NCBI RefSeq assembly: GCF_031180975.1
Contig: NZ_JAPSLI010000001.1
Span: forward strand, 239,521-303,520
Direction of reading: 5' to 3'
DNA from: Microbacterium sp.
Lineage (GTDB): Bacteria > Actinomycetota > Actinomycetes > Actinomycetales > Microbacteriaceae
DNA length: 64,000 nucleotides
Position 1 is the first letter of the stretch. The number at the start of each line of letters is the position of its first letter. This document shows, piece by piece, positions 40,140 to 56,306 of the stretch. A program made the translations under genes and the position numbers. The notes beneath the pieces were generated by a model, which was given only the letters and a program-made list of their open reading frames with translations, did no database searches and had not been told where the DNA came from.

Positions 40140-41803
40140 CTGTGGAACAGCTTCTCGCGCCGCTCACGCACCGGCGCGTCCTCGGCCGCCTGCCAATGCT
40201 GCGGAACCGTCGGACCGATGCCCAGGTACTTGCGCCGGTACGCGCGCCATGACGTGGCCCAGGTCTCGGGGTCGGTCACGGGATCCGGATCGACGTGGTG
40301 GATGCTCGACCGATGCGGGGCCGACCGGATGAAGTCGGGGTCTTCACGCGCCTCCGCCGCGACGGTGTGCAACGCGTCGATGTACTCGTCGAGCTCCCGC
40401 CGGGAATACGCCTCGGTGGGCTCGATCGTGGTGGGGTCGGGGACGACGTACGGGTGGTGGCTGGTCCACAGGTGCATGCCGAAGTCGGCCAGGCGTTGTC
40501 CCAATTCCCCCGAGCTGACGCCCGTGTCGCGGGCGAGTTCCGCCCAGCTGTAACGCACCTGCTCGATCGGAGGCGGCGCGCCTTCGAGATACGCCGCCTC
40601 GACGCCTTCCGCCGCCGTGAGCCGCGCCATGACGTAGTTGTTGTTGATCACGGCGATTTCGGCGACCTCGCGCAGCCCCTCAGGTCCCAGTGCCCTGATC
40701 CAGGCGTACGCGCGGATCAGGTTGGGGATCACACCCCAGAACGGGCGGATGGGAGCGGTGCTGAGCGGCCCGCGGTCCCGCAGGACGTACTCGCCGCCGT
40801 CGAGCACGACCCGCGGACCGGGCAGGAAGGGTTCGAGTTCGGCTGTGGCGCCGATCGCACCGGCGGCTGGGCCGCCGCAGGCGTGCGGTGTCGAGAACGT
40901 CTTGTGCAGGTTGAAGTGGCACAGGTCGAACCCGGCCTCACGGGCGCGGGTGATACCCAGGATGCCGTTGGCGTTGGCTTGGTCGTAGACGCAGAGCGCG
41001 CCGACTTCGTGAGCCATCTGGACGATCTCGGCGATGTGCGGGTTGAAGATCCCGGTGTCCTCGGGATTGGTGATCATAAGCGCAGCCGTGCGCTCAGACA
41101 GCGATGCCCGCAATGTCCCGACGTCGATCAGCCCGTCCTCCCCCGGATAGAGGGTGATCACCCGGTAGCCGGCGGTCTTCGCCGCAGCGGCGTTCGAGGG
41201 GTGCGAGAAGATGGTCGTGACCACCTCGTCGCGGGTCTCCCCCGCTCCGCGGCTCGCATGGTACGCGCGCACGATCTGCACATTCCCCCAGATAGCGGCG
41301 GACCCGGCCCCCGCCTGGAGGGATATCGCATCCATCCCCGACACCGCGCGGATGCAGCTCTCGAGGTCATGGATGATCTGCAGCGTCCCTTGCACGGTGG
41401 ACGAATGCTGCAGGGGGTGCGTCTCCACGCTCTGCGGCGACCCGGCGAACTCCTCGTTGATCTTCGGGCTGTACTTCATCGTGCACGTGCCCTGACCGAT
41501 GTCGACATTGAGGTCGGCGCCGAGCGTCTCCTGAGACAGCCGCAGGAAGTGCCGCAGCACCTGCGCCTGCCCGATCTCGGGCAGACTGCTGACGTCGTCG
41601 CGCCGCACGCCGGACTCCGGCGAGTTCCGTAACGCTGCCTCCACGGCATCGTCCGGCCTCGGGACGTGGATTCCGCGCTCGCCCGGCGAACCGAGACCGA
41701 AGATCAGCGGCTCGCTCCACCGCGCAGCGTGGTAGTCGCGCTGCGCGGTGGGACGCGAGCCGTCGGCGGCGACGAGAAGGGTTCGGGTCAATGCATCCGT
41801 CAT
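40136..41803 (-). CDS. gcvPB: Glycine dehydrogenase (decarboxylating) subunit 2-like
   Basis: A 555-residue fold-type I PLP protein homologous to GcvPB, the catalytic half of split P-protein. RHFLRLSQETLGADLNVDIGQGTCTMKYSPKINEE matches the GcvPB N-terminal core. HNLHKTF-type sequence (CHFNLHKTFSTPHACGGPA) carries the PLP lysine, Lys301. It is about 60 residues longer than usual GcvPB, and its first 70 residues (GLGSPGERGIHVP region) do not look like the standard enzyme. It is encoded with a GcvPA-like partner (ATGA overlap) and the NAD-kinase-like gene. No gcvT, gcvH or lipoamide dehydrogenase gene is nearby, so the substrate may be glycine or a related amino acid. Confidence 0.82.
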   Translation of the reverse strand: MTDALTRTLLVAADGSRPTAQRDYHAARWSEPLIFGLGSPGERGIHVPRPDDAVEAALRNSPESGVRRDDVSSLPEIGQAQVLRHFLRLSQETLGADLNVDIGQGTCTMKYSPKINEEFAGSPQSVETHPLQHSSTVQGTLQIIHDLESCIRAVSGMDAISLQAGAGSAAIWGNVQIVRAYHASRGAGETRDEVVTTIFSHPSNAAAAKTAGYRVITLYPGEDGLIDVGTLRASLSERTAALMITNPEDTGIFNPHIAEIVQMAHEVGALCVYDQANANGILGITRAREAGFDLCHFNLHKTFSTPHACGGPAAGAIGATAELEPFLPGPRVVLDGGEYVLRDRGPLSTAPIRPFWGVIPNLIRAYAWIRALGPEGLREVAEIAVINNNYVMARLTAAEGVEAAYLEGAPPPIEQVRYSWAELARDTGVSSGELGQRLADFGMHLWTSHHPYVVPDPTTIEPTEAYSRRELDEYIDALHTVAAEAREDPDFIRSAPHRSSIHHVDPDPVTDPETWATSWRAYRRKYLGIGPTVPQHWQAAEDAPVRERREKLFHR

Positions 41804-43191
41804 CGGAGTACCTCCTGCAGTGCGAGTGCGAGCCTGTCGATGTCGGCAGCGGTGTGCATCTCGGTGACGGCGACGAGCACCACCTGTCCGAGTTCGGGGA
41901 ACTCCCGAGTCAGTGGCACGCCACCGAAGATGCCGCGCCCGCGGAGGTCTGCGAGGATGTCCGCGGCGTCCCGCCCGGTGAACCGCACACCGAACTCGCG
42001 CCAGTGCGCCGCGTCCGCTGCCACCACCTCTACGCCATCGACCGCGCGTAGTCGTTCAATCGCGTAGCGGGTGGTCGCCGCCACGTAGTCGCCGATCTCC
42101 CGGAGACCCTGAGGACCGAGGAGCGAGAGGTAGACGCCGGCCGTGATGCCCCACAGTGCTGCAGCCGTGCCTACCCACTCGATTCCGTCCTCCCGCATGG
42201 CGAGCGACGTGCGTTCGTAGGCGACGTCGGTGAATCCGAGTTCGCCGTCGACGGAGGTGGGAGCGAGGCCGAACAGGCGGGAGGGGAACTCGTAGACGAA
42301 CGCCTCCTCATCGTGCGTGGCGATGAATCCGCCGTGAGCGCCGCCGAAATGCATCCCGAGGCCGAGCGACTGGATGTCTCCGCACAGGATGTCGGCGCCG
42401 TATCGCGCCGGGCTTGCGATGAACCCCAACGCGAGCGGCTCCACACCGCAGATCAGAAGTGCCCCCCGCTCGTGCGCCAGGGAGGCGATCTCCGCAATCT
42501 CGGTCTCGATGACGCCGATGGCATTCGGCGTCTCGATGTAGATCGCGGCCGTGGAGTCGTCCAACATTTCCCGCACGGCTGCCAGGTCAGTGCGACCGGT
42601 GGACCGGTCGAGTGGAACGGACTCGGTCTCCGCGACGCCGGCGAGGTACGAGTCCACCTTTCGCCGCTTGTCGGCCAGCATCGCCTCGGTGACGAGCACG
42701 CGGGAGCGGCCGGTCATCCGCAGTGCCATCCGTAGCGAGGTCGCCGCGGCCTGGTAGCCGTCATAGTTCGGGACGTTCACGACGTCCATCTCCACGAGCT
42801 CCGCCATCAGGCTGGTGTACTCGAAGATGGCCTGCCATTTGCCGTGGTCCTCGTACGGCTCTCCGGCGTAGGCGGTCAGGAACTCGGCTCTGGAGTTGAT
42901 CTCACCGCATACCGATGGGACGTGGTGGTGGTAGCACCCGGCCCCGAGGAACGACAGCGCACGAGAGACCGGCACGTTCTGGTCGAGCAGCCCTGTCATG
43001 TGGCGCCGCAGCTCCACCTCTGACGAGAGAGCGGGCGGGATGTCGAGGGGTGCGTTCAAGCGCAGTGCGGCAGGGATCGACGCGTACAGGTCTTCGACAT
43101 CATCCACGCCGATGGCCTCGAGCATCTGTGCCTTGGCCATGGGGGCGGAGTTCGGGATATAGGGATGCGCATCCGGCGCGTCTTCGCGCAT
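41800..43191 (-). CDS. gcvPA: Glycine dehydrogenase (decarboxylating) subunit 1-like
   Basis: A 463-residue homologue of GcvPA, the non-catalytic half of split P-protein. HPYIPNSAPMAKAQMLEAIGVDDVEDLYASIP and SFLGAGCYHHHVPSVCGEINSRAEFLTAYAGEPYEDHGKWQAIFEYTSLMAEL are highly characteristic of the family, as is SLGLGMHFGGAHGGFIA. The start ATG 43191 has AAGGAGGAG upstream, and TAGTCT (minus strand, 43224-43219) is a likely -10. The promoter is flanked by a perfect inverted repeat that may be the operator of the divergent PucR regulator. It heads a three-gene operon with the gcvPB-like and NAD-kinase-like genes. Confidence 0.85.
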   Translation of the reverse strand: MREDAPDAHPYIPNSAPMAKAQMLEAIGVDDVEDLYASIPAALRLNAPLDIPPALSSEVELRRHMTGLLDQNVPVSRALSFLGAGCYHHHVPSVCGEINSRAEFLTAYAGEPYEDHGKWQAIFEYTSLMAELVEMDVVNVPNYDGYQAAATSLRMALRMTGRSRVLVTEAMLADKRRKVDSYLAGVAETESVPLDRSTGRTDLAAVREMLDDSTAAIYIETPNAIGVIETEIAEIASLAHERGALLICGVEPLALGFIASPARYGADILCGDIQSLGLGMHFGGAHGGFIATHDEEAFVYEFPSRLFGLAPTSVDGELGFTDVAYERTSLAMREDGIEWVGTAAALWGITAGVYLSLLGPQGLREIGDYVAATTRYAIERLRAVDGVEVVAADAAHWREFGVRFTGRDAADILADLRGRGIFGGVPLTREFPELGQVVLVAVTEMHTAADIDRLALALQEVLR

Positions 43192-43203
43192 GTGCTCCTC
43201 CTT

Positions 43204-43240
43204 GGTCTGGTTGTCCCAAGACTAGAAAGGGAACCAGACC
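43204..43240. promoter_or_regulatory. Inverted repeat over the gcvPA promoter
   Basis: Perfect 9-bp arms GGTCTGGTT (43204-43212) and AACCAGACC (43232-43240), separated by 19 nt that contain the likely gcvPA -10 (TAGTCT on the minus strand). It sits in the divergent gcvPA-pucR gap and is the best candidate operator for the PucR-family protein. Confidence 0.6.
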
Positions 43241-43338
43241 GTGGCAGCGTCCAACATGTACATCTTGCGTCGGGGGAGCGCCGATGTGGAGAGTCCTGAT
43301 TGTTTGCGACCGGCTCCCGGGTGAGACAAGGTGAGGGA

Positions 43339-44859
43339 ATGGTTCCTCTTCATTCGCTGCTCGTGCTCCCTGGTCTCGGGCTGCGGCTCGTGGTCGGCGT
43401 CGACTCCCCGGAAGTGGAGATCCGCTGGGCGCATGTCAGCGAGCTCAACGACCCCACGCCTTGGCTCGAGGGCGGCGAGCTGTTGCTGACCACGGGACTC
43501 AGCGCGTCGTGGGAGGGCGAGGACGCGTTGCGGTACTGTCAGCGGCTCGTCGATCGCGGTGTCGTGGCGCTCGGTGTCAGCACAGGCTCGGACCTCACCC
43601 ACCAGGCCATTCCCGCAGACCTGCTCTCGGCCGCGGAGCGCACGGGACTGCGCCTCGTGCACGTACCGCATCTGACGCCGCTTCAGGCGGTAGTGCGCGC
43701 GGTGGCCGACGAGATCAGTTCCGCCAGCGAACGACCGTTGCGGTCACAGGTGGAACTGCAGCAGAAGCTGATGCTGGAAGCGGCGTCCGGGAGCGGGCTC
43801 AGCGGAGCGACCGAACGCATCCGCACGGCCAGCGGTCTCTGGGTCTCGGTGCACGATGCACGGCTCCGCAAGCTGGCAGGGCCCGCCGACTCCGTGCTGG
43901 GCGAAGAGCTCAGGCGTCGCATCCGGCGCCAGCTGATGCGGGACAGGCAGGGCTCGATCTCGATCCAGGAGGATGCCGACCGCTCGGCCTTCATACTCCC
44001 GCTGGTTGGCGATGGCCGGGTACGCGGTTATGCGGTCGCCACGAAGGACGCTCCTTTCACCGTCGAAGAGCGGTCTCTGCTGAAGGTCGCGGCTCCCATC
44101 CTCGGCCTGCTCCTCGATCTCAGGGAGGCAGCGGAGAGTCCGCTGCGCCAGGCCCGGGGCGCGGCGGCCGCATCCCTGATCAGCGCCCGTGAGGGAGCGG
44201 AGCACCTGCAGCAGATGCTTCGTGCGGCGAGGCTGGCACCCAGCCGCACTCAAGTCGCGCGGGTTCGCACCCGTTCCGTCGCCCAGCGACGGGCGCTGAT
44301 GGCGGGTCTCATCGAACTCGCTGACGACGCTCTCGCACTCAACGACCAGGATCAGACGGCACTCGTGCTCTGCGACCCTGTGCCGGATCTGCCGGAGCGC
44401 TTCCTGGCGTTGGCTGAAGAGATCGAGCTCGAGGACGTGGGCTTGGGTGAGCCGGGTTCGATCGAGCGGACGCCGGAGAGCCACATCGAGGCCATGCGTG
44501 CACAAGGCGCGGCGCGGATGATGGGTATGCGCGTCGCCACCGCCCCGCAGCAAGGGTGTCAGTTGAGCCGGATCCTCTCTGACGCGGAGCGGCTGGCCGA
44601 GTTCTCCCGCAGCGTCCTCGCCCCGCTGGAGAGCCACGACCGTGACAACCCGCGGCTCGAACTGCTGCCGACGCTTCGGGCGTACTTCGATGCGATCGCC
44701 AGTATCGAGACAGCGGCGGGCGTACTCGGCATCCACCGGCACACGATGCGCGCACGGCTCCGGAAGATCGGCGAGGTCAGCGGATACGACCTGACTCAGC
44801 CGGGCCAGTATCTCGAACTGTGGCTCGCTGTCGAGCTGCGGGGCCGTCTGCCGGGCTGA
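43339..44859 (+). CDS. PucR-family transcriptional regulator
   Basis: A 506-residue regulator. The N-terminal PucR domain (about 1-125) shows WAHVSELNDPTPWLEGGELLLTTG, the family hallmark. The middle region is GAF/GGDEF-like and probably senses a metabolite. The C-terminal helix-turn-helix (about 450-506) is IETAAGVLGIHRHTMRARLRKIGEVSGYDL, typical of the PucR/CdaR C-terminal domain. The founder regulates purine catabolism, but relatives control varied catabolic operons. ATG 43339 is preferred over 43300 because AAGGTGAGGG lies directly upstream. It diverges from the gcvPA operon and probably controls it. Confidence 0.88.
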   Translation: MVPLHSLLVLPGLGLRLVVGVDSPEVEIRWAHVSELNDPTPWLEGGELLLTTGLSASWEGEDALRYCQRLVDRGVVALGVSTGSDLTHQAIPADLLSAAERTGLRLVHVPHLTPLQAVVRAVADEISSASERPLRSQVELQQKLMLEAASGSGLSGATERIRTASGLWVSVHDARLRKLAGPADSVLGEELRRRIRRQLMRDRQGSISIQEDADRSAFILPLVGDGRVRGYAVATKDAPFTVEERSLLKVAAPILGLLLDLREAAESPLRQARGAAAASLISAREGAEHLQQMLRAARLAPSRTQVARVRTRSVAQRRALMAGLIELADDALALNDQDQTALVLCDPVPDLPERFLALAEEIELEDVGLGEPGSIERTPESHIEAMRAQGAARMMGMRVATAPQQGCQLSRILSDAERLAEFSRSVLAPLESHDRDNPRLELLPTLRAYFDAIASIETAAGVLGIHRHTMRARLRKIGEVSGYDLTQPGQYLELWLAVELRGRLPG

Positions 44860-44862
44860 ACC

Positions 44863-44921
44863 CAGCCCGCCATCGGGCTGTCCACGATGGACAGGGCGAA
44901 CCGCCGGATCGTCCGATCCGG
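44863..44921. promoter_or_regulatory. Three adjacent inverted repeats after pucR
   Basis: Within 59 nt lie CAGCCCG-CCAT-CGGGCTG (44863-44880), CTGTCCA-CGA-TGGACAG (44878-44894) and CCGGATC-GTCC-GATCCGG (44904-44921), all with perfect 7-bp arms. The first may terminate pucR; the other two precede the probable VOC-gene promoter (TAGCCT at 44949-44954) and could be operators. No T-run follows any of them. Confidence 0.5.
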
Positions 44922-44993
44922 ACATTCCGCTTCGCAGGGGAGCCCGGGTAGCCTGCCGCGGAAGCCGCCGCAAGCCGGCATGGAGGGAGCGCC

Positions 44994-45428
44994 GTGGACT
45001 GGGATCGGGTATACCAGGTCGGGATCGTTGTGGCGGACATCGGGCGCGCCGCAGCGCATTACGCCCTAGCGGGAATAGGGCCGTTCGAGGCCGGTCCGTC
45101 CGAGAACGTGACGGCGCGGCGCGTGCACGGCGCGCCGTCGGATGCGGTGGTGCGCGGCGCCTGTGCACAGATGGGGCCGATCGAGCTGGAGCTGCTCCAG
45201 CCGGTCAGCGGCGCGAGCGTGCAGGCGGAGGCGTTGGCTGAGCGCGGGGAGCACACGTTGCACATCTGCGCCTACACCGACGACTTGGATGCCGACATCG
45301 CGGAGATGGCGGAGGCCGGATTCCCCGTCATCTCGGAGGGCACCCTTGCCGACGGCGGGCGTTTCGCATACTTCGACACCCGCGCCATCGGCGGACTCGT
45401 CCTCGAGCGTCATCAGCTCCCGCGGTGA
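44994..45428 (+). CDS. VOC-family (glyoxalase-fold) protein
   Basis: A 144-residue vicinal-oxygen-chelate protein. [29 protein letters not shown] is the first beta-alpha-beta-beta-beta module and [18 protein letters not shown] with [27 protein letters not shown] the second. The pattern of an H/Q near the start, Glu in ELLQ and His in LHIC resembles methylmalonyl-CoA epimerase and related hydrolases/lyases. The reaction is unknown. GTG 44994 has GGAGGGA 5 nt upstream. Its 3' end overlaps the convergent FGD gene by 16 nt. Confidence 0.8.
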
Positions 45429-46450
45429 GCGCCTGCCAGCGCACGTAGACGTGGCGCGAGTTGCGTCTGGAACTGCGCCATGAAGCGCCGCTGATCGTTG
45501 CCCGGAGCGTGGAAGACGAGGTGATCGAACCCGGCTTCGACGTACTCCATGATGCGTGCGACCGCGTCGTCAGGGTCTGCGCTGACGATCCAACGCGATG
45601 CGATTCGCTCGATCGGGAGCGCATCCGCGGCGCGCTCCATCTCCAGGGGGTCGGTGATGTCGTGCTTCTGCTCCTTCGACAGCGACAGCGGTGACCAGAA
45701 TCGGGTGTTCTCGTACGCCTCGTCGATCGTGTCGGCGAATGAGAGTTTGATCTCGATCATCCTGTCGATGGACCCGGACTCGCGGCGTGACAGCGCCGCG
45801 CCCTCGGCGACCGCCGGCAGCAACTGCTCGGTGTACAGCTCCATTCCTTTGCCGGATGTGCAGATGAACCCGTCGCCGGCCCGGCCGGCGTAGCGCGCCA
45901 CCGTCGGACCGCCCGCGGCGATGTACACCGGGATGGGTCGATCGGGGCGGTCGTAGATGCTGGCGTCGTGTGTCGAGTAATACTCGCCGTCGAAGGTCAC
46001 CCGTTCCTCGCGCCAAAGCGCACGCATGAGCCGCACCGCTTCGCGCAGCCGCGCGAAGCGCTCGCGGAACTCCGGCCAGGTCTGGGCGCCTGGGCCCTGA
46101 AACCCGGTGGCGATCTCGTTCAGCGCCTCCCCCGAACCGACGCCGAGGAAGACGCGCTCAGGGTAGAGGCAGCCCAGCGTCGCGAACGCCTGAGCGAGCA
46201 CGGCGGGGTTGTAGCGGAACGTCGGGGTCATCACCGAAGTGCCGAGCAGGATCCGCTCGGTCCTCTCGCCCGCCGCGGTGAGCCAGGAAAGCGCGAAGGG
46301 CGCATGCCCCCCGTTGTGCCGCCACGGTTGGAAGTGGTCGCTGACGGTGGCGGAATCGAATCCGTGGGCTTCGGCCTCCACTGCGAGCTCGACCAGTTCC
46401 CGGGGACCGAACTGCTCCGCCGACGCCTTGTACCCGAATCTCAATGCCAT
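45413..46450 (-). CDS. fgd: F420-dependent glucose-6-phosphate dehydrogenase
   Basis: A 345-residue LLM-class enzyme closely matching mycobacterial FGD1 from memory: [102 protein letters not shown] and [14 protein letters not shown]. Catalytic positions fit: His39 (His40 of FGD1), Trp43 (Trp44) and Glu108 (Glu109), with the phosphate-binding lysine in TSGKG. A 5-residue insertion follows EIATGFQ. The enzyme oxidises glucose 6-phosphate to 6-phosphogluconolactone and makes F420H2. The gene is last in the operon from 52395, with a TGA-C-ATG junction to the gene before it. Confidence 0.95.
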
Positions 46451-46451
46451 G

Positions 46452-47408
46452 TCATGTCTCCGCTCTCGTCATGCCACCGGGCTCGATCACCGCTCGCATC
46501 CGCGGCAGCACCTCCGCCACCACCGACTCGAGCTGGTCGGCCTCGTCGTACACCGGATTCAGGATGAGCAGGTCCGGACGTCCGGCCGCGACGAGCTCGT
46601 CGAGCGCCGCGGCGCACTGCTGGGGATTCCCGAACACCGCCACCTCCGCCGCGAGTTCCTGGGGCTCGCGAATCGTTCCCCAGTGTGCTGCGAACCAGTC
46701 GACGATGCGCGATCTGGCCCGGCCCGTGTCGTCTTCGACCGCCAGGTATACCTTCTTAGCGATGGTGAAGCCGTCGCGGTCGGCGCCGAGTTGGCGCAAC
46801 CGCCGTGCCGCTCTCGCGAAGGACGCCGGTGAGCTGCCGCCCGCGCCGACCCACCCGCTGCCACGGCGTGCGGCGCGCGCCAGCGCTCCGGGCGATGCGC
46901 CTCCGAACCACAGCGGCGGGTGAGGCCGCTGCAGAGTCGAGGGACTCATCCGCGCGCCGTCCAGCTGTCGCTCGGTGTCGGCGTAGTGGACGGGTTCGCT
47001 CGACCACAACGCCGTCATGAGATCCAGCATCGCGTCCAGCCGCTGACCTCGGTGGCGGTGATCGACACCGGACGCGTCGAACAGCTGGGGCATGTCCCCG
47101 ATACCGAATCCGGCGATGAGCCGACCTTCGCTGAGACGGTCAAGACTGCCCAGCTGCTTCGCGAGGACGATCGGGTTGCGAGCGGGGGCGATCACTGCTG
47201 CGGTGCCGAGACGCACTCGCCGCGTGACCGCTGACACGAACGCGAGATTGATGAGCGGTTCGATACTGGAATCCACGCCGAGCAGCTGCTCCTGCACCCA
47301 CAGGCTGTCGAGTCCCAGTTCCTCGGCTCGGCATGCGAACCGCTCGGTGAACCCCGCGAAGCCCGGCTCACCGGCACTGCTCTGCGGGAGCGCGACGCCG
47401 ATGCGCAT
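46452..47408 (-). CDS. LLM-class flavin/F420-dependent oxidoreductase
   Basis: A 318-residue bacterial-luciferase-like TIM barrel. [73 protein letters not shown] and [27 protein letters not shown] are the usual LLM landmarks: the first strand, the strand-2 acidic/aromatic position, the cofactor phosphate region and the Gly-rich strand 7-8. FMN and F420 users share these, so the cofactor is inferred from the FGD gene 1 nt downstream. ATG 47408 follows the previous stop as TGA-G-ATG, so it is coupled. The substrate is unknown. Confidence 0.85.
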
Positions 47409-47409
47409 C

Positions 47410-48411
47410 TCAGTCCCCGTCGCTCTGGCAGGACCGGATGAAGGCGAGCACGCCGTCCAGGTCGCCACCGGAGTCGAAGGCGATCTCCGTGATGCCGGCG
47501 TCCGAGAACGCCTCCACCGTGCGCCGACACTCGTCGGGTGTTCCTGCGACGCAGTACTGATCGACCAGCTCGTCGGGAATCAGCTCGTCGAGGGGGCGCC
47601 CTGCGTCGAACTCGGTGCGGATCCGCTTCATCCGTTCCTCATCGAGATCGCTCCAGTCCAGGAAGAGCCGCGACAGGAAGGCGACCTGTGACCACCTCGC
47701 GATGAAGTACCCGAGAACTCCCCGCATGCGCGACCGCGCCCGCGCGCCGTCGGCGTCGACCGCGATGGGGATGTAGGCCACCACGGGCACCGCTTCCCTG
47801 CCGGCATCCCGCGCCGCCGCTTGCACCTCCTGCGCTGCCCACCGTGCGTGCTCCTGCGAGCACATCATCGTCAGCACCGCACCGTCCATGCGCCTGCCCG
47901 CCTGCGCGAGTGCCTTGGGGCCGACGGCGGCGACGTACACCGGCGGAACCTCCATATGCTCCGCCGGGGACAGCCGCAGCCCATTCGCCGAGTGCAGCAC
48001 CCCCTGTTGTGTCAGTGCGTCGCCGCTCAGCAGAGTGCGCAACGCCGTCACCGCCTCGTCGACGATCCGCAGCGGCGGCGAGGCGGGCTTGTCGATCAGC
48101 GCGCCGCGTTCGGCCACGCCGGCACCGAGTCCGACGATCACCCGTCCATGCCCGAGTTCGCAGAGGCTGCGGATGTCCATGGCGAGCGATGCCGGATGCC
48201 GGTGCTGCGACGCGAGCACGCCGAACGCGATTTCGATGTCGCGTGTCCGTGCCAGTGCCGCTGCCGCCGTCGGCATCGCCCCCCGGTGGAACAGGTCCTC
48301 CGACAGCCAGGCCCGCCGCACTCCTGCCGCCTCGGCGCGCACCACGTCATCGACCACGCGGGCAGCATCGCCGTGGTTGGAGAGCTGGATGCTCAGCGCG
48401 GGCAGTGTCAT
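47410..48411 (-). CDS. LLM-class oxidoreductase, Mer-like
   Basis: A 333-residue LLM-class TIM barrel closer to the methylenetetrahydromethanopterin reductase (Mer)-like, F420-using subgroup than to luciferases. ARVVDDVVRAEAAGVRRAWLSEDLFHRGAMPTAAA, IEIAFGVLASQHRHPASLAMDI, GRVIVGLGAGV and VPPVYVAAVGPKALAQAGRRMDGAVLT are the landmarks. The last part, YCVAGTPDECRRTVEAFSDAGITEIAFDS, is a common LLM ending. It lies 4 nt after the M24 gene and 1 nt before the next LLM gene. The substrate is unknown. Confidence 0.83.
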   Translation of the reverse strand: MTLPALSIQLSNHGDAARVVDDVVRAEAAGVRRAWLSEDLFHRGAMPTAAAALARTRDIEIAFGVLASQHRHPASLAMDIRSLCELGHGRVIVGLGAGVAERGALIDKPASPPLRIVDEAVTALRTLLSGDALTQQGVLHSANGLRLSPAEHMEVPPVYVAAVGPKALAQAGRRMDGAVLTMMCSQEHARWAAQEVQAAARDAGREAVPVVAYIPIAVDADGARARSRMRGVLGYFIARWSQVAFLSRLFLDWSDLDEERMKRIRTEFDAGRPLDELIPDELVDQYCVAGTPDECRRTVEAFSDAGITEIAFDSGGDLDGVLAFIRSCQSDGD

Positions 48412-48415
48412 CGCC

Positions 48416-49681
48416 TCAACGGACCTCGAGCAGCTCGTCGCGGGGAATCGACGACAGCATCTCCGGAGCGTCGTCGGTGACGATGACGTGCTCCTCGAGG
48501 GCGAAGACGCCGAGTCCGCTGGGGTCGTAGAGCCACGGCTCGACCGAGAGCACCATGCCCTCCTGGAGGACTTCGTCGTTGTAGGGCGTCAGCATGATGG
48601 GCTCGTGCAGGTCCATCCCGATGCCGTGTCCTATCATGTCGAGCGTCGGCAGTCCGGACTCTTCGATGATCCGTGCGGCGGCGAAGAACACCTCCTTGGC
48701 TGGCACGCCGGGGCGGCACATCGACACGGCGGCGTCCTGAGCGCGGACCGTGATGTCATACACCTCGTGGTGCCGGTCGGTCGCCTTGCCCAGCAGGGTG
48801 GTGTACGCCACGTCGGTGCCGTACTGGCCGTACTTGGCGCCGGTATCGATGATGAGCAGGTCGCCTTCCTCGAAGGGCCGGGCCTGCGGCAGCGAGTCGC
48901 TGCAGTGGTACCGGTCGCTACCCGCGCGGATGTTGCGGAACGAGGTGTCATCACCGCCACGCTTCATGATCTCGAAAGCGATGCGGTTGCCGATCTCGCG
49001 TTCGGTCTGCCCGAGCGCCAGATCGTCGCGCACCGCGGTGATCGCCTCGTCGGTGATCCTGGTCAGCCATCGCATGCGATCCAGCTCGCGCGGAGACTTG
49101 ATCATCCGCACACCCCAGATCACACGGGCGGCGCTGCGCATCTCGCCGGAGACGAGCTGTTCGGTGACGTACAGCAGGTCGTCGAGGTTCCAGCCTGGCG
49201 ACATGTGCGTGCCGCGCTCGAAACCAACGACTGCCGTCCGTCCGCCGAGCCGGTGTACGGCTTCGACGAGGACCCGGCCGAAGTCGCGAGGCGCTGCATG
49301 CGGTTCGGGGAAGATGGCGAGCTCGTCCACCCACGACGTCGACCACGCCGTGCCCGAGAAGAATCGCGGGATCAGCAGCACCGGATCCTTCGAACGGTGC
49401 AGCAGGAGGGCGCCGGTCGGGAACGACTTGGAATTCCAGTGTCCATTCTGGAACCCGGAGAAGTACTCGACGTTCTCCCCCGACGTGATCACGACGACGT
49501 CCAGCCCGTCTTCACGCATGATCTCCTGCGCTCGGCGGACTCGTGACTCGTACTCGTCACGCGGGAAGTCTTCCCAGTTCAGCCGGTACGCTTCGGGAAA
49601 TCCCATCTCTTCCTGCTTCCTCTTCTTCGAGCTTCCTGATGGTCGCGCCGGGGCGCCGTTACTGAGATCCGGGTCATTCAC
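48416..49681 (-). CDS. M24-family metallopeptidase / creatinase-fold hydrolase
   Basis: A 421-residue protein with a creatinase N-terminal domain (DEYESRVRRAQEIMREDGLDVVVITSGENVEYFSGF) and a pita-bread M24 catalytic domain. All five metal ligands are visible: Asp279 (IIDTG), Asp290 (GTDVAYT), His352 (GHGIGMD), Glu381 (SVEPW) and Glu396 (LEEHVIVT). It is therefore probably a dinuclear-metal peptidase such as an Xaa-Pro dipeptidase relative; true creatinase lacks the full metal set. In an operon with a transporter and F420 enzymes, a C-N bond hydrolase is plausible. GTG 49681 (GGGAG 7 nt upstream) overlaps the end of the binding-protein gene; ATG 49606 is an alternative. Confidence 0.85.
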   Translation of the reverse strand: MNDPDLSNGAPARPSGSSKKRKQEEMGFPEAYRLNWEDFPRDEYESRVRRAQEIMREDGLDVVVITSGENVEYFSGFQNGHWNSKSFPTGALLLHRSKDPVLLIPRFFSGTAWSTSWVDELAIFPEPHAAPRDFGRVLVEAVHRLGGRTAVVGFERGTHMSPGWNLDDLLYVTEQLVSGEMRSAARVIWGVRMIKSPRELDRMRWLTRITDEAITAVRDDLALGQTEREIGNRIAFEIMKRGGDDTSFRNIRAGSDRYHCSDSLPQARPFEEGDLLIIDTGAKYGQYGTDVAYTTLLGKATDRHHEVYDITVRAQDAAVSMCRPGVPAKEVFFAAARIIEESGLPTLDMIGHGIGMDLHEPIMLTPYNDEVLQEGMVLSVEPWLYDPSGLGVFALEEHVIVTDDAPEMLSSIPRDELLEVR

Positions 49682-50732
49682 GGATGAACTCCCGATCGGC
49701 AAGGTCGACCTTCTCGACGAACTCGTTGGTGTAGTTCTTCGTGGGGTCCGTCTCAGGAAGCTCGCCCAGCGTCGTGAGCATCTCCGCCTGGAGGGCCCAG
49801 GCCTCCTCGTTGTGCAGGCCCAGCCCGTTCTCGTCCGTCCACTCCGTGGCGAGGAAGCGGCTGTCCATCTCGAAGGTGGCGGCCAGGGATTCGGCGTTCA
49901 CGTTCGCGTACATGCCGGCCATCGCCTCGGCGGTCCCCTTCGGGTCTTCCAGAGCCGCCTTCAGACCTTTGAGGGACGCACGCACGAAGCGCTCGACGAG
50001 GTCCGGATCCTTCTCGATCAATTCGGGCGTGGTGAACAGGACGGTCGACGGGGTGATGTAGCCGGCATCCGAAACGGTAAGGATGTTCACCTCGTCTTTG
50101 AGGTCGGGCAAGCCGGCGAGGTTGCCGAGGAACGTTCCGGCCGCGTCCACCTGCCCTTCGGAGAGGGCTGCGAACTGGGCGCCGGGGCTGAGATTGATGA
50201 AGTCAATCTCGTTCTTGTCGATTCCGGCGAGTTGGAGGGCCGCCAGCGTGGCGAGGTGTCCCGACGAGGTCACCGAGCCGCCGATGGACTTGCCGCGCAG
50301 GTCCTCCCATGTCTCGATCCCCGAGTCCTTCAGGGCGATGACGGCGTTCGGGTTCTCCTGGTACTGCTGCATCACCGAGACCATGTCGATACCCTTGGTC
50401 TGCGCCGAGAGCAGGTGCGAGGCCTCGCCCGTGCCGAACATCACTTCTCCGTTCGCGACCAGCTGCACGGCGGTTGCACCTCCGTTGCCGGGCTGGTCGA
50501 CCAGTTGGATGCCCTCCTCCTCATAGAAGCCGAGCGCCTTCGCCGCGGCGTACGGCAAGGTGATCTGGTCGGGAACCCAGGAGTGGCGGAGGGTGACGAG
50601 GTCGAGACCGTCCTCGCTTTTGGCCGCTTGGCCACCGCCCTGGTCGGCTGCGGCGCAGCCGCCGAGGGCGAGGGCGAGAGCAGCGGATGCTGCCGCGGCG
50701 CTGATCACACGGGACTTCGTTGTGCTGTGCAT
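49674..50732 (-). CDS. ABC transporter substrate-binding lipoprotein, NMT1/THI5-like
   Basis: A 352-residue exported lipoprotein. The signal peptide ends in the lipobox LALGGC (about Cys25), with an acidic tether. TLRHSWVPDQITLPYAAAKALGFYEEEGIQL and VQLVANGEVMFGTGEASHLL start the type II binding fold of the nitrate/sulfonate/pyrimidine-precursor (NMT1/THI5, SsuA, TauA) group. LRGKSIGGSVTSSGHLATLAALQLAGIDKNEIDFINL is the second typical stretch. The ligand cannot be inferred. ATG 50732 has GGAG 6 nt upstream. It lies between the permease and the M24 gene in one operon. Confidence 0.88.
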   Translation of the reverse strand: MHSTTKSRVISAAAASAALALALGGCAAADQGGGQAAKSEDGLDLVTLRHSWVPDQITLPYAAAKALGFYEEEGIQLVDQPGNGGATAVQLVANGEVMFGTGEASHLLSAQTKGIDMVSVMQQYQENPNAVIALKDSGIETWEDLRGKSIGGSVTSSGHLATLAALQLAGIDKNEIDFINLSPGAQFAALSEGQVDAAGTFLGNLAGLPDLKDEVNILTVSDAGYITPSTVLFTTPELIEKDPDLVERFVRASLKGLKAALEDPKGTAEAMAGMYANVNAESLAATFEMDSRFLATEWTDENGLGLHNEEAWALQAEMLTTLGELPETDPTKNYTNEFVEKVDLADREFIRE

Positions 50733-50774
50733 GAGGGGCTCCAAACGGGTGGGGTGGATGGTGCAGGGATGAGG

Positions 50775-51620
50775 TCAGCCGGATTCCCGGGCGAGTCGGG
50801 TGTTGGCCCGCGTGCCGACCATGAGGCGACCGAGAAGCCGGACGCCGAAGTAGAACAGCATTCCGATCGCGGAGATGAAGACGATGGCCGCGAACACCTC
50901 CGCGGTGTCGATACGGCTGTTGGCCATGAGGATCTGGTAGCCGAGTCCCGCTCTTGCCCCGATGAACTCGCCGACGATCGCACCGACGACGGCCAGCGAC
51001 ATGCCGACCTCGAGGCCGGCGAAGATCTCCGGAAGGCTGGAGGGCAGGTAGATCATGCGGAACTTCTGCCAACCGTTGGCCGACACGGAGTGCATCAGCT
51101 CGAGCAGGTTCACGTCGACGCCCTCGAAGCCCACCACCGTGTTGACCAGAACCGGGAAGAGGCAGATCAGCGCCGTGATCGCGATGATCGATGTCTCGCC
51201 GACGCCGAACCAGATGAGGAAGAGCGGAGCGAGAGCGACCTTCGGCACGGTCTGCAGGAAGACGACACCGGGATAGATGATGGTGCGCAGCGGCTTGGAG
51301 TAGAAAATGCCGAGGGCGAGCAGGAACCCGAGCAACGACCCGATGACGAAACCGATCACGATCTCACGAGCGGTGACGATGGTGTTCGACCACAGCGACG
51401 AGGAGTTCAGCTGCATGGACTGGATGATCATCGACGGGCCGGGCAGGATGAAGGCGCGCACCCACCCCAGCTGCGAGGCGATCTCCCAGAGGATGAAGAG
51501 CGCACCATAGAACAGCACTGCCGGCAGGCTGGTGAAGTGCCGCTTCCACGCGCCGCTCCGTGTGTTCGTCGCGATGATCGTCGCCGTACGCGGGCCGTCC
51601 GTGGCGATGGTGTCAGTCAT
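50775..51620 (-). CDS. ABC transporter permease, SsuC/TauC type
   Basis: A 281-residue permease with about six helices. The cytoplasmic EAA-like loop is IYLPSSLPEIFAGLEVGMSLAVVGAIVGEFIGARAGLGYQI, characteristic of nitrate/sulfonate/taurine-type permeases. LWEIASQLGWVRAFILPGPSMII is the first membrane region. The ATG at 51620 lies 8 nt inside the end of the ATPase gene, giving translational coupling. A 42-nt gap separates it from the binding protein. Confidence 0.9.
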   Translation of the reverse strand: MTDTIATDGPRTATIIATNTRSGAWKRHFTSLPAVLFYGALFILWEIASQLGWVRAFILPGPSMIIQSMQLNSSSLWSNTIVTAREIVIGFVIGSLLGFLLALGIFYSKPLRTIIYPGVVFLQTVPKVALAPLFLIWFGVGETSIIAITALICLFPVLVNTVVGFEGVDVNLLELMHSVSANGWQKFRMIYLPSSLPEIFAGLEVGMSLAVVGAIVGEFIGARAGLGYQILMANSRIDTAEVFAAIVFISAIGMLFYFGVRLLGRLMVGTRANTRLARESG

Positions 51621-52395
51621 GGGGTTCCAGCATCTGTCGGAGCTCATGGGAGAGCGCGATGAACGTCGGGTCTTCACGGTGGTCGGGCGTCCGGGGGCGG
51701 GGCAGCTGCACCCGCTCGTACTTCTGCACGACGGTGGGCCGCGGCCCCATCACCAGCACCTTGTCGGATAACAGAACCGCCTCATCGATGCTGTGTGTGA
51801 CGAAGAGGATGGTTTTGCCCGCCTCCTCATGGATCCGGAGCAGTTCGAAGCCCATCCGGTCCCGTGTGATCAGGTCGAGAGCGCCGAACGGCTCGTCCAT
51901 GATCAGCACGCCCGGGTCGTACGACAATGCGCGCGCAATCGCCACGCGCTGCTGCATGCCGCCGGAGATCTGATCGGGGCGGTGATCGGCGAAGTCCTCA
52001 AGACCGACGAGAGCGAGCAGTTCTCTGCCGCGGTCCTCCTTCGCCTTCTTCGACCAGCCGAGAACGTCCAGCGGCAGGGTGACGTTACGGAGCACCGAAC
52101 GCCACTCCACCAGGGTGGGCCGCTGGAAGACGAATCCGAACTGCCGGGACGCGCGGGCTGCGGCCGGGGGCTGGTCATCGATGAGGATCTGGCCGGATGT
52201 GGGTGCAAGCAGGTCGCCGACCATTCGGACCACCGTGGTCTTCCCGCACCCCGATGGGCCGATCACGGACACGAAGCTGCCGGCTTCAATGCCGACGCTC
52301 ACGGAATCCACGACCTGCATCGGTCCGGCCGCCGTGTGGAACGTCTTTGTGACGTCCCGCAGCGTCACTGCGGCGCCTCCTCCACCAGAGTTCAT
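51613..52395 (-). CDS. ABC transporter ATP-binding protein, SsuB/TauB type
   Basis: A 260-residue ABC ATPase: Walker A GPSGCGKTTVVRMVGDL, Q-loop FVFQRPTLVEWRSVLRNVTLPL, signature ISGGMQQRVAIARALSY, Walker B VLIMDEPFGALD and the switch His in LFVTHSIDEAVLL. This set is typical of the nitrate/sulfonate/taurine group. It is the first gene of the seven-gene minus-strand operon to 45413. ATG 52395 has AGAGG about 8 nt upstream. A promoter with TTGAGG and TAGTTT boxes lies about 75-100 nt upstream. Confidence 0.92.
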   Translation of the reverse strand: MNSGGGGAAVTLRDVTKTFHTAAGPMQVVDSVSVGIEAGSFVSVIGPSGCGKTTVVRMVGDLLAPTSGQILIDDQPPAAARASRQFGFVFQRPTLVEWRSVLRNVTLPLDVLGWSKKAKEDRGRELLALVGLEDFADHRPDQISGGMQQRVAIARALSYDPGVLIMDEPFGALDLITRDRMGFELLRIHEEAGKTILFVTHSIDEAVLLSDKVLVMGPRPTVVQKYERVQLPRPRTPDHREDPTFIALSHELRQMLEPHD

Positions 52396-52497: not shown

Positions 52498-52565
52498 TCG
52501 ACAATTCGTACATTCCCGATCGTCCGCTGGACGCTTCGGAGCGTGAGGGGTGCAAACGGCTCCGA

Positions 52566-52679: not shown

Positions 52680-53663
52680 GTGACCTCTCGCACCCTCCGC
52701 GCCGGCATCCCGGCTCTACTCCTGATCGTGTTTCTCGGCGGCTGCGCTCCCTCCCCGGGAGCCGCCCCTTCCTCGGAGCCCGGCGCCTCGACCGGCTTCC
52801 CCGTCCAACTGGAGAACTGCGGGACTGAGCTCGAGATCGCAGCACCGCCCGAGCGCGTGCTCGCCATCAAATCGACCTCAACCGAGATGCTGCTCGCCCT
52901 GGGGCTGGAGGACCGCATCGTCGCGACGGCTTTCCCCGACGGTCCCGTCCCCGAGCAGTGGCGTGAACGCGCCGACGGGCTCGTCGTGATCTCTGAACGC
53001 CTGCCCGGTCAAGAGAGTGTGCTCGAGCTCGCACCCGACTTCATCTATGCCGGGTGGGAGTCCAACGTCACCGCCGAGGGCGTGGGCGAGCGCGACAGCC
53101 TGGCCCAGCTCGGGATCGGGACGTATGTCGCGCCTGCCGCCTGCACCGGACCCGAGCGGCCGGATCGTCTGACATTCGAGGACGTCTTCGACTCGATCGA
53201 GGAGGTGGCGCAGATCTTCGACGTCTCCGACCGCGCGGCGCAGCTCATCGCCGATCAGCGCGCCCGGCTCGAAGCCGTCGCGCCTTCCGAGCTCGGCCTG
53301 CGGGCGCTCTGGTACAGCTCGGGCAGCGACACCCCGTTCGTGGGAGGCGGCACGGGTGCCCCTCAGATGATCATGGACGCCGTCGGTCTGGAGAACATCG
53401 CCGCTGACATCCCCGAACCGTGGGGTTCGCTGTCCTGGGAGGCGGCCGTCGCCGCCGACCCGGATGTCATCGTCCTCGTCGACTCTGCCTGGGGCAGCGC
53501 CGAGAAGAAGAAGTCTGTGCTCGCCTCCCATCCGGCCGCGTCATCGATGCGGGCCGTCGCCGAAGGCCGGTATCTGGTGGTGCCCTTCCCTGCCGGCGAG
53601 GCCGGCGTGCGCAACGTCGACGCGGTGGAGACCCTGCGAGCGCAGATCGACGATCTGCCATGA
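52680..53663 (+). CDS. ABC transporter substrate-binding lipoprotein, probable F420-0 binding protein
   Basis: A 327-residue lipoprotein of the BtuF/FhuD-like (helical-backbone) binding family. The lipobox is LGGC (about Cys22). VLAIKSTSTEMLLALGLEDRIVATAF and VLELAPDFIYAGWESNVTAEG are the two typical cores, and PDVIVLVDSAWGSAEKKKSVLASHPA is near the C-terminus. Such proteins normally bind metal chelates. A specific actinobacterial clade, found with a matching permease and ATPase and with cofE, has been proposed to bind coenzyme F420-0 (TIGRFAMs models TIGR03868/TIGR03869/TIGR03873, from memory). The neighbouring cofE and fgd genes support that reading. GTG 52680 is chosen; TTG 52668 is an alternative. 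Confidence 0.8.
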   Translation: MTSRTLRAGIPALLLIVFLGGCAPSPGAAPSSEPGASTGFPVQLENCGTELEIAAPPERVLAIKSTSTEMLLALGLEDRIVATAFPDGPVPEQWRERADGLVVISERLPGQESVLELAPDFIYAGWESNVTAEGVGERDSLAQLGIGTYVAPAACTGPERPDRLTFEDVFDSIEEVAQIFDVSDRAAQLIADQRARLEAVAPSELGLRALWYSSGSDTPFVGGGTGAPQMIMDAVGLENIAADIPEPWGSLSWEAAVAADPDVIVLVDSAWGSAEKKKSVLASHPAASSMRAVAEGRYLVVPFPAGEAGVRNVDAVETLRAQIDDLP

Positions 53664-54742
53664 CCGATGCGACGAGGTCCCTCGCCCGGCCGGTGGCCTG
53701 GTCGCCGGCATCCGCACTGCTGCGCGACGCCGCGATGATGAGCGCGCTGGCGGTCCTCGTCCCCGCGTCGATCGTCGCAGCCGTGACGATCGGTCCCGCC
53801 GAGATCTCTCCCGCCGCGACATGGGGCACCGTGCTCGCCCATGTGAGCGGAGGACCCGCCGTCCTCCCCCCGACTCTCGACGCGATCGTCTGGCAGATCC
53901 GCCTGCCTCGCGCGCTCACCGCGGCCGCCGTGGGCGCCGGCCTGGCTCTGTGCGGGGCGGTGCTGCAGTCCACCACCCGAAACTCGCTTGCAGACCCGTT
54001 CCTGCTGGGTATTTCCGCAGGGGCCTCCCTCGGGGCCGCCTGCGTCATCCTTCTCAGCGCGGCGATCGCCCTGCCGCTGGCGGCGTTCGCCGGAGCGTCG
54101 CTCGCGCTTGCGATGACCCTGGCGCTCGCACGTGACGGCACCACCGTCGTGCCCGGCCGGGCGATTCTGGCAGGAGTGGCCGTGTCGGCGTTCTTCGGGT
54201 CCCTGACGAGTCTCGGGATCTTCTGGTTCGCGAACGGCGACAGCTACCGAGAGATCCTCGGCTGGCTGCTCGGATCTCTCGCCGGTTCCTCCTGGACCGG
54301 CACGGCACTCGTCGCTGCGGCGCTGCTGCTCACGGCGCCCTTGCTGATGGGAAGCGCACGAACCCTGGACGCGTTCCTGCTCGGCGACCACGCGGCGGCG
54401 TCCCTCGGCGTCTCGGTCGTCCGCGCACGCTGGATGCTGCTGGTCGTCGCGACGCTGCTCACCGCAATCATGGTCAGCGTCAGCGGGTCCATCGGCTTCG
54501 TCGGGCTGGTCGTTCCTCATGCCGTCCGGCTGCTCGGCGCCGTCAGGCATAGGCTGCTTCTGCCCTGCTCCGCGTTGGGCGGAGCGGTGCTGATGGTCTG
54601 GGCTGACACCGCGGCGCGGTCGCTCTTCGAACCCCGGGAGCTGCCGGTCGGGGTCGTGACCGCGTTGCTGGGTGCGCCCGCCTTCGGACTGCTGCTTCTG
54701 CGGAGAGGCTCCGTGAGAGCGCGACGGGAGCAGCGGGCATGA
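53660..54742 (+). CDS. FecCD-family ABC transporter permease, probable F420-0 transporter
   Basis: A 360-residue permease of the FecCD/BtuC fold, about ten helices. IVWQIRLPRALTAAAVGAGLALCGAVLQSTTRNSLADPFLLGISAGASLGA is the strongest family signature. GSIGFVGLVVPHAVRLL is the second. In this family the permease forms a homodimer. The ATG at 53660 overlaps the binding-protein stop as ATGA, and its own stop overlaps the ATPase start. Substrate assignment to F420-0 rests on the gene neighbourhood. Confidence 0.85.
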   Translation: MTDATRSLARPVAWSPASALLRDAAMMSALAVLVPASIVAAVTIGPAEISPAATWGTVLAHVSGGPAVLPPTLDAIVWQIRLPRALTAAAVGAGLALCGAVLQSTTRNSLADPFLLGISAGASLGAACVILLSAAIALPLAAFAGASLALAMTLALARDGTTVVPGRAILAGVAVSAFFGSLTSLGIFWFANGDSYREILGWLLGSLAGSSWTGTALVAAALLLTAPLLMGSARTLDAFLLGDHAAASLGVSVVRARWMLLVVATLLTAIMVSVSGSIGFVGLVVPHAVRLLGAVRHRLLLPCSALGGAVLMVWADTAARSLFEPRELPVGVVTALLGAPAFGLLLLRRGSVRARREQRA

Positions 54743-55575
54743 ACAGCCCTCCCGCATCCGATGGTTTCGCAGTCCGGCTCGAGGCGAAGGGGATCGTCGC
54801 CGTCACAGGCGGGCGCGCCGTACTCGCCGGAGTCACGATCACGGCGAATGGCGGCTGCGTGACGGCGGTGGTCGGTCCGAACGGCGCGGGCAAGTCGACG
54901 TTGCTGCGCATCCTGGCGGGAATCGAGCGGCCGGGCGAGGGGAGCGTCCTCCTCGGCGGAGCGGACCTGAAGGGCGTCCCCGGCAGGCAGCGCGCTCGAC
55001 TCGTCGCGTTCGTCGAGCAGGAGCCGGCGACGGACCTTGACCTCCGCGCGCTCGACGTCGTGCTGCTCGGCCGCATCCCCTACCTCGGAGTCATGGGAGC
55101 CCCGGGCGCCCGGGACACCGACATGGCGCGTGCCGCGATGGACAGCATGGGCGTCGGGCATCTCGAGGATCGCAGCTTCGCCCACCTATCCGGCGGCGAG
55201 CGGCGCCGCGTGCTCCTGGCCCGTGCCATCGCCCAGCAACCGTCGGTGCTCGTCCTCGACGAGCCGACCAATCACCTCGACATCGGCGCGCAGCTGACCG
55301 TGCTTGAGTTCGCGCGGCGCGTCGCCCGCGGCGGCATGTGCGTGGTGCTCGCCCTGCACGATCTGACCCTCGCGGCCGCCTTCGCCGATCGGGTCGTGGT
55401 GCTCGCCGACGGCGTCGCCGCGGCCGCCGGCCCCCCGGATGAGGTTCTCACCCCGGACCTGATCGCCCGAGTGTTCGATGTCACGGCGAGCGTGTTGCGC
55501 CGCGCCGAGGACGATGCGCCGGTGTTCGCCTACTCGCGGTCGCCGCGGCTGCCGTCCGCCAGCCCGCGGCGGTAG
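54739..55575 (+). CDS. ABC transporter ATP-binding protein, probable F420-0 transporter
   Basis: A 278-residue ATPase of the FepC/BtuD type: Walker [18 protein letters not shown]-loop region [28 protein letters not shown], signature [15 protein letters not shown], Walker [14 protein letters not shown] and switch His ALHDLTLA. The last 15 codons overlap the convergent cofE gene by 46 nt (55530-55575), so each message would be antisense to the other at its 3' end. It completes the three-gene importer. Confidence 0.88.
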
Positions 55576-56306
55576 GCCTCGGCGGTTCCCTCACGGAAGA
55601 GATCGTCTTCGCCTGTGCGCACGATGGTGGCGGCTCCGGGAAGGTCGAGTTCGCCGACGGCATGACCCAGCCCGCGCAGCACCGCGACGGGGGTGCCGTT
55701 CACCTTCCCCTTTACGAGGTCGCCTGCACCGGCGATCTCGTCGGCAAGGCACGGCCTGGTGACCCGAAGCTCCCGCCCTGTGGAGTCGCGCATTCCGTGC
55801 ATCTCGTCGAACACCCGCACGCCGGCAGCGCCGATCGCGATGTCCGTCTGCCCACCCCGCCACGGACGCCCGAGCGTGTCGGTGATGACCACACCGATCC
55901 GAACGTTCCACCGCCGCCGCAGCGCTGCGCCGATCCGCCGGGCGGAATCGTCGGGATCGATCGGGAGCAGAAGCACCGTGCCCGCCTCGGTGTTCGAGGC
56001 GTCGACGCCGGCGGCGGCGCCGACGATTCCGAGCCGGTTCTCGACGATCCGCAGTGACGTGCCGTCGGTGCGTTCACGGGTGGCGACGACGCGCACTGTC
56101 TCAGAGGTGATCGCCGCCTCCCGGTCTTCCGCGCGAATGATGCGGCCTTCGGCCTTCGAGATGATCTTCGACGTGATGACCAGGATGTCACCGTCGATGA
56201 GGGGTTCGCCCGTGGCATCCACGGCCGTTGCGATGACCCCTGCGACGTCAGCGCCCGGCGCGATCTCCCCGATACCCGGCAGTGCCCAGACGCAGATCCT
56301 CTGCAT
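55530..56306 (-). CDS. cofE: Coenzyme F420-0:L-glutamate ligase
   Basis: A 258-residue enzyme adding glutamate to F420-0 with GTP. The CofE landmarks are in order: [89 protein letters not shown], and [25 protein letters not shown]. This is the stand-alone form; mycobacterial FbiB has an extra C-terminal nitroreductase-like domain that is absent here. ATG 56306 shares a TGATG junction with the upstream FGD-family gene, with GAAGGA 5 nt before it; GTG 56309 is the alternative. Its 3' end overlaps the transporter ATPase. Confidence 0.93.

Follow-up and report, generated by a model that had tools for sequence, protein, structure and literature searches.

A 64-kb window of Microbacterium sp. DNA (the whole stretch that was analysed) carries seven closely packed genes on its minus strand, from 52395 to 45413 (open reading frame coordinates, best starts), and we propose that they form the front half of a catabolic island of 12 genes, at 39033-52395 between rarD and groES. 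The island encodes an ATP-NAD-kinase-like (NADK-like) protein, GcvPB-like and GcvPA-like proteins, a PucR-type regulator, a VOC protein, FGD, two luciferase-like oxidoreductases (LLM2 and LLM1), an M24 metallohydrolase, and the binding protein, permease and ATPase of an ABC importer. Our reading is that the island is probably under the control of one PucR-type regulator and that the operon would serve to import, reduce and hydrolyse a compound using scavenged F420; we put the probability of this at about one half. A preliminary description of this DNA had recognised the seven operon genes, which are real and tightly packed, but had missed the other five (VOC, PucR, GcvPA-like, GcvPB-like and NADK-like). 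The island would give an organism that seemingly lacks F420 synthesis a catabolic system that brings its own supply of F420H2, and it makes testable within one genus both the purpose of most F420-linked LLM enzymes and the sharing of F420 between bacteria. We did not find this gene set described in the open-licence PubMed Central literature.

The positions, strand and family calls of the seven genes (TIGR03554, TIGR03619, PF09084 and Peptidase_M24) agree with the preliminary description, and in a domain search the NMT1 family PF09084 scored 154.1 and Peptidase_M24 152.3. From the ATPase gene to FGD, the six junctions measure -8, 42, 67, 4, 1 and 1 nucleotides (nt). Four of these are at most 8 nt and bear out the statement that nearly all genes are joined by overlaps or gaps of 1-4 nt, but the junctions between permease and binding protein (42 nt) and between binding protein and M24 (67 nt) are wider than that. 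The 67-nt gap depends on the M24 start, taken as the ATG at 49606, which is favoured by alignment with the relative in G004, the second species of the genus carrying the island. A consensus scan detected no terminator-like sites on the minus strand between 43000 and 53000. The coordinates of all features are given in Table 1.

Table 1. Features of the island and of the adjoining F420-0 block in the window
Feature	Position	Strand	Remarks
ABC transporter ATPase, Ssu/Tau/nitrate-like	51613..52395	-	88% identity to G004 orthologue
ABC permease, BPD_transp_1, SsuC-like but under SsuC cut-off	50775..51620	-	82% to G004 orthologue
NMT1/THI5-type substrate-binding lipoprotein	49674..50732	-	PF09084 6.6e-45; 80% to G004 orthologue
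M24 metallohydrolase	48416..49606	-	five metal ligands kept; Ala369 at prolidase Arg position
LLM1, Mer-like, probably F420H2-dependent oxidoreductase	47410..48411	-	nearest solved structure Mer 1z69, 9.5e-27
LLM2, luciferase-like oxidoreductase, cofactor ambiguous (F420 or FMN)	46452..47408	-	TIGR03619 172.4 bits (cut-off 166.9)
FGD	45413..46450	-	TIGR03554 606.6 bits (cut-off 420)
VOC (glyoxalase-fold) protein	44994..45428	+	PF13669; 77% to G004 orthologue
PucR-type transcriptional regulator, likely island regulator	43339..44859	+	PF07905, PF13556; start uncertain, 43300 to 43363
GcvPA-like protein, divergent from canonical glycine-cleavage P protein	41800..43191	-	NF001696 467 bits (cut-off 364)
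GcvPB-like pyridoxal phosphate (PLP) enzyme, PLP-lysine motif kept	40136..41803	-	NF003346 534 bits (cut-off 441)
ATP-NAD-kinase-like protein	39033..40139	-	PF01513, PF20143
Predicted ATGTAC-type site upstream of ATPase gene	52502..52513	-	conserved in G004
Predicted ATGTAC-type palindrome, GcvPA/PucR divergent region	43252..43267	.	conserved in G004
Putative F420-0 ABC importer, binding protein	52680..53663	+	TIGR03868 432.9 bits (cut-off 392.4)
Putative F420-0 ABC importer, permease	53660..54742	+	TIGR03869 403.2 bits, under cut-off 437.35
Putative F420-0 ABC importer, ATPase	54739..55575	+	TIGR03873 291.5 bits, under cut-off 372.4
CofE, F420-0:L-glutamate ligase	55530..56306	-	TIGR01916 217.6 bits (cut-off 180.65)
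LLM of FGD-like group, overlaps CofE start	56306..57340	-	TIGR03885 205.2 and TIGR03557 192.8 bits, both under cut-off

The same 12 genes are present in G004, collinear with those of the window's own genome (G000) and at the same groES/rarD site, with VOC and PucR on the strand opposite to the operon; the 12 proteins share 63-88% identity between the two species, and this second occurrence makes the seven-gene set more than a chance grouping. A protein search of 366 genomes of the genus found an orthologue of the M24 enzyme in these two only, and a third genome over the search threshold (G010) has paralogues only, at 32-36%. At E 1e-60, the only M24 match among 398 genomes of the family and 394 of the class was in the window's own genome, these samples having been drawn evenly from larger groups and not necessarily including G004. 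Conservation in relatives had been suggested as a check on the gene set: it is conserved where present, but very rare. Plasmid searches with M24, LLM1, the binding protein and PucR returned only matches below 60% identity. A contig profile search with the M24 alignment, which relied on poor peptide patterns, gave one distant Dadabacterium M24 protein only.

For the insertion site, we compared the surroundings of the gene at 58190 in 12 of the 13 other congeners (G008 was left out). The spacing between groES and rarD is 91-203 nt in nine of the 12; the exceptions are G032 (1,298 nt), G007 (4,112 nt) and G013, where neither gene was found in the stretch. The same gap measures 18,507 nt in the window, F420-0 block included, and about 13.9 kb in G004. 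At more than 45% identity and E 1e-20, no match to the island proteins was observed around the site in the 12 congeners. Since the 12 genes are absent from a short homologous gap in most congeners, the island appears to be one insert. At its border, the groES-like gene at 57476-57772 is 97% identical in G004, and upstream of the G004 copy there is a CIRCE-like repeat.

Comparison of three non-coding regions of the island between G000 and G004 revealed a common ATGTAC core, present in all three regions of G004 and in two of the window, the PucR-VOC region being the one without it. Exact matches to ATGTACRNNTTG in the window are confined to 43252-43267 (a palindrome, matched on both strands) and 52502-52513; since ATGTACRNNTTG was built from those same sites, this exclusive match proves little by itself. 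In a hexamer test on the six regions of both species, corrected for the choice of hexamer, ATGTAC ranked first with 8.69 against a null maximum of 6.03 (300 shuffled sets), a joint score which is overstated because two homologous genomes were treated as independent. For G004 alone, both ATGTAC (5.29) and AATGTA (6.11) exceeded the null maximum of 4.97. We consider the recurrence to be fair, though not strong, evidence for one regulon, and these predicted sites would probably be those of the PucR protein. This regulator weakly resembles PmfR, an activator of nicotine catabolism (73.3 bits against a cut-off of 800).

The FGD of the operon is, judged by its sequence, a genuine member of its family. 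It aligns over its full length with Rh-FGD1, and residues K197, K258 and R282, named as the Rh-FGD1 phosphate site in a portion of PMC5352752, are aligned and identical in it. In G000 it is the only FGD over the TIGR03554 cut-off, and in G004 the operon has kept its FGD despite a second one, located beside the CofE gene of that genome; the claim that the operon has its own F420H2 generator is supported. LLM1 is probably an F420H2-dependent, Mer-like enzyme. The first eight of the 12 solved sequences that it matched are F420 or methylene-tetrahydromethanopterin reductase enzymes, six of them Mer. The cofactor of LLM2 is ambiguous, and structurally it is nearest to FMN-type monooxygenases. It clears TIGR03619 narrowly, by 5.5 bits, and in sequence the solved proteins closest to it are 7bip (RslO1) and two of luciferase type, all three of them monooxygenases, followed by the F420 enzyme 9fp4 in fourth place and MsuD in fifth. 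Its AlphaFold2 model (pLDDT 83) gave RslO1, MsuD, 2i7g, 3rao and SfnG as best folds; Mer enters at rank 15 and FGD at rank 28.

RslO1, MsuD and SfnG among these folds are consistent with organosulfur or sulfonate-type catabolism, in which an SsuABC/TauABC-like importer would feed an FMNH2-dependent LLM2, while FGD and LLM1 would belong to general F420 metabolism. The permease and the binding protein also score best with SsuC and SsuA-family models. However, every Ssu/Tau score is under its curated cut-off, and neither protein reaches those of the SsuABC sulfonate importer (121.2 against 347 bits for the permease with SsuC, 96.4 against 163.5 bits for the binding protein with the SsuA family). 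Family scans recognised no flavin reductase among the 12 island genes, and in both species the operon includes a tightly packed FGD gene, even though G004 has another. In addition, we know of no part played by M24 or GcvP-like genes in the known sulfonate routes. With its scores under the cut-offs, a sulfonate route was rejected as first choice; it is unlikely, although it fares best among the alternatives that we weighed.

Next in order, and also unlikely, is that these are neighbouring genes without a common pathway, held together by vertical descent. A tree of five flanking proteins from 11 genomes joins G000 and G004 with a support of 0.963, and the two are wholly collinear from IMPDH to TsaD. 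Given this grouping, a single old arrival, or loss in the others, is as likely as two arrivals. Descent as the sole bond is opposed by the homologous site of nine of the 12 congeners, where the 12 genes are missing and only a short gap is present, by the near-zero gaps within the operon, and by the recurrent site in the non-coding regions.

The reading that we prefer requires a source of F420. CofH and CofD, the two synthesis proteins searched for (CofC and CofG were not), had no match in G000, which is listed as 100% complete, or in G004. The same searches gave CofH-type matches in G010 and G020 and CofD matches in G002, G010 and G020; for CofH, G010 and G020 score under the curated cut-off of 374.1 bits (262 and 269), and G000 has no match at E 0.001. 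An FGD over cut-off was found in five of the eight congeners examined (G000, G002, G004, G010 and G020). Of these, G000 and G004 have neither a CofH nor a CofD match but do have an F420-0 binding protein that exceeds its cut-off; G010 and G020 show the reverse, with CofD and a CofH-type sequence present and no such binding protein exceeding the cut-off. Relatives of CofE occur in G004 (69%) and G002 (59%), a few kb from the respective importers. With CofH and CofD unmatched in G000 and a putative F420-0 importer and CofE beside its operon, F420 is probably salvaged, and the gene pattern fits F420-0 salvage in both G000 and G004. The preliminary description had overlooked the source of the cofactor, which in a genome with no CofH or CofD match is probably external. 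The fifth FGD-bearing genome, G002, has an F420-0 binding protein over cut-off and CofD with no CofH match, as if it were taking up Fo.

The importer block resembles the putative F420-0 ABC cassette with cofE (TIGR03868/03869/03873), in that its binding protein is over cut-off, a CofE gene adjoins it, FGD lies nearby, and CofH and CofD are unmatched; it is unlike that cassette in being divergent beside a catabolic operon and in having a permease and an ATPase under cut-off. Such a cassette has been proposed, reportedly in the family description of TIGR03868, to serve uptake in organisms without F420 synthesis. As the block is located elsewhere in G004, we rejected the idea that it belongs to the island as a constant component. 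In PMC8498797, a review, the words salvage, uptake and auxotroph do not occur in the main text, and our searches of the open-licence PubMed Central literature found no paper on F420 salvage.

The known catabolic roles of F420 are few. The F420:NADPH oxidoreductase NpdG has no counterpart recognised among the island genes scanned, FGD being present instead, and in this, as in the addition of M24, an NMT1 importer and GcvP-like genes, the island is unlike the picrate degradation of Rhodococcus and Nocardioides. The two are alike in placing F420H2-dependent LLM-type reductases in a catabolic route, and picrate and related nitroaromatics are the catabolic substrates named in parts of PMC8498797. 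Parts of the same review also link F420-dependent enzymes to xenobiotic breakdown and detoxification, which would favour a role in detoxification or salvage, with the operon reducing and cleaving an imported antibiotic-like compound and F420 chemistry serving tolerance. The importer, the PucR regulator and the GcvP-like enzymes would, however, fit the use of a compound better than defence, and this alternative ranks third, as improbable.

The M24 enzyme (396 amino acids) has all five metal ligands that had been claimed for it, which alignment places at D254, D265, H327, E356 and E371. Two residues before the last metal Glu, both this protein and its G004 orthologue have Ala369, whereas Arg occupies that place in 15 of the 18 further M24 proteins aligned. 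PDB 5cde R372A apparently carries its mutation at the same position, the residue number being deduced from the alignment. With the prolidase Arg replaced by Ala369, dipeptide cleavage is doubtful, and the peptide-bond hydrolysis proposed earlier is not supported as stated; from the sequence we would expect a non-dipeptide substrate. A strict prolidase reading was rejected on the same residue. Xaa-Pro dipeptidases are the closest folds to the model of the protein (pLDDT 85), ectoine hydrolase ranking 22nd and creatinase 31st. The protein scores 144.2 against 630 bits with the PepQ model and 107.4 and 58.4 bits with the DoeA models (cut-offs 575 and 613). The ectoine hydrolase DoeA/EutD and creatinase are M24 enzymes acting on non-peptide C-N bonds. 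They share with the island enzyme its fold and an N-terminal creatinase domain, but the DoeA scores are far under cut-off and no other ectoine gene was recognised among the genes scanned. The least probable alternative is import of a proline-type dipeptide, in which M24 would be a genuine Xaa-Pro dipeptidase and dehydro-proline-like parts would be acted on by the LLM enzymes: Xaa-Pro dipeptidases are indeed the closest folds and sequences, but Ala369, scores far under the PepQ, ectoine hydrolase and other equivalog cut-offs, and a binding protein that is not of Opp/Dpp type stand against it.

Gene content, gene order, the insertion site, the recurrent ATGTAC site and the cofactor-gene pattern are observed, while the substrate, the order of the reactions and salvage are inferred. 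Under our preferred scheme of import, reduction and hydrolysis, the NMT1-type importer would bring in a small nitrogenous compound, probably cyclic or imine-like, which LLM1 would reduce with F420H2. LLM2 might then reduce it again or oxygenate it with FMNH2, and FGD would regenerate F420H2 from glucose 6-phosphate. M24 would then cleave a C-N bond in the activated product by hydrolysis, acting more like ectoine hydrolase than like a prolidase, and the amino-containing product could be processed by the VOC protein and the trio of GcvPA-like, GcvPB-like and NADK-like proteins. The F420 itself would derive from F420-0 of other organisms, imported and then polyglutamylated by CofE. The import-reduce-hydrolyse idea of the preliminary description is plausible but unproven; the supported part is a catabolic unit that is conserved, probably co-regulated and equipped with an F420H2 generator. 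It is a more tentative suggestion that the bacterium cannot make F420 and that the whole pathway runs on a borrowed cofactor, with F420-0 released by neighbours being imported and finished by CofE, one dedicated FGD serving the reduction of a scavenged compound, a non-peptidase M24 and an undescribed PLP-enzyme/kinase module; were it true, the nutrient use of the species would depend on its microbial company.

Several observations weigh against this scheme. G000 and G004 may be sister lineages, collinear throughout from IMPDH to TsaD, in which case their shared gene order is partly inheritance. LLM1 is under the cut-offs of all 23 NCBIfam models that it matched (best 144.9 against 276 bits, for an F420 family). 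The nearest solved relatives of LLM2 are mostly monooxygenases, and the claim that both LLM enzymes are F420H2-dependent reductases is not supported as made. Only one of the three F420-0 importer models is over cut-off, and in G004 the F420-0 block is not beside the operon. Of the window's three non-coding regions, only two have the ATGTAC site; taken by itself, the window gives no significant hexamer score (3.41, null 95% 4.01), and WTGTACR is over-represented window-wide, with 16 matches against 4.13 expected, mostly outside the island. Lastly, the trio is tied to the operon by position and the shared ATGTAC site only.

The trio recurs outside the island. Like the glycine cleavage P protein, the GcvPA-like and GcvPB-like proteins pass the NCBIfam equivalog cut-offs and the GcvPB-like proteins keep the PLP-lysine motif; the differences are an NADK-like partner, no island gene scored as GcvT or GcvH in family scans, and changed motifs, the window copy having HPSN and HACGGPA against HGxN and HGGGGPG in the one-chain GcvP of the genome and in 1wyt_B. 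This one-chain GcvP and a GcvH are encoded elsewhere in G000 and, together with the changed motifs, make 'glycine dehydrogenase' a doubtful name in spite of the cut-offs passed. Simple glycine cleavage was rejected on account of that GcvP and GcvH.

Among 356 genomes of the order, a protein search found the NADK-like protein in seven, one of them G000. The trio genes are adjacent in six other genomes (L053-L058) and in a second G000 copy (L052, 9011-15322, contig C4). With neighbours grouped by BLAST and Pfam names taken from L053, these seven loci carry an SDR gene in every case, a GntR-type gene in six and a GH42 beta-galactosidase homologue in five, and perhaps represent a conserved, sugar-linked locus. 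On plasmids, 13 of 72,556 records matched; 12 were inspected (H23 was left out), and the trio was present in seven and not found in the fetched flanks of five. The seven belong to Rhodococcus (two), Gemmobacter, Paracoccus, Sphingomonas, Roseicitreum and Antarctobacter (L038, L039, L041, L042, L049, L050 and L091). Six are annotated as glycine dehydrogenase and L049 is without annotation, and no GcvT or GcvH is listed in the plasmid trio stretches viewed. The island thereby flags a recurrent GcvPA/GcvPB/NADK-like module that is labelled glycine dehydrogenase in the annotated records examined. The open-licence PubMed Central literature yielded no description of its reaction. A place for the trio in ephedrine- or pyrazine-type aminoketone catabolism was considered, but searches of the same literature gave it no support.

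Pairing of LLM and M24 genes was also observed away from the island. An LLM gene lies beside a distant M24 gene at two of the 28 M24 loci L003-L030 (L003 of G010 and L010 of G013), and a further LLM gene is 2 kb from M24 in L033; these loci are too few for a module to be claimed. In different surroundings, distant M24 genes directly adjoin LLM genes at L063 8076-10282 (G010) and L086 9343-11605 (G013), and the M24-LLM locus of G010 adjoins, by eye, an Opp-type-looking ABC transporter and an amino-acid-oxidase-like gene.

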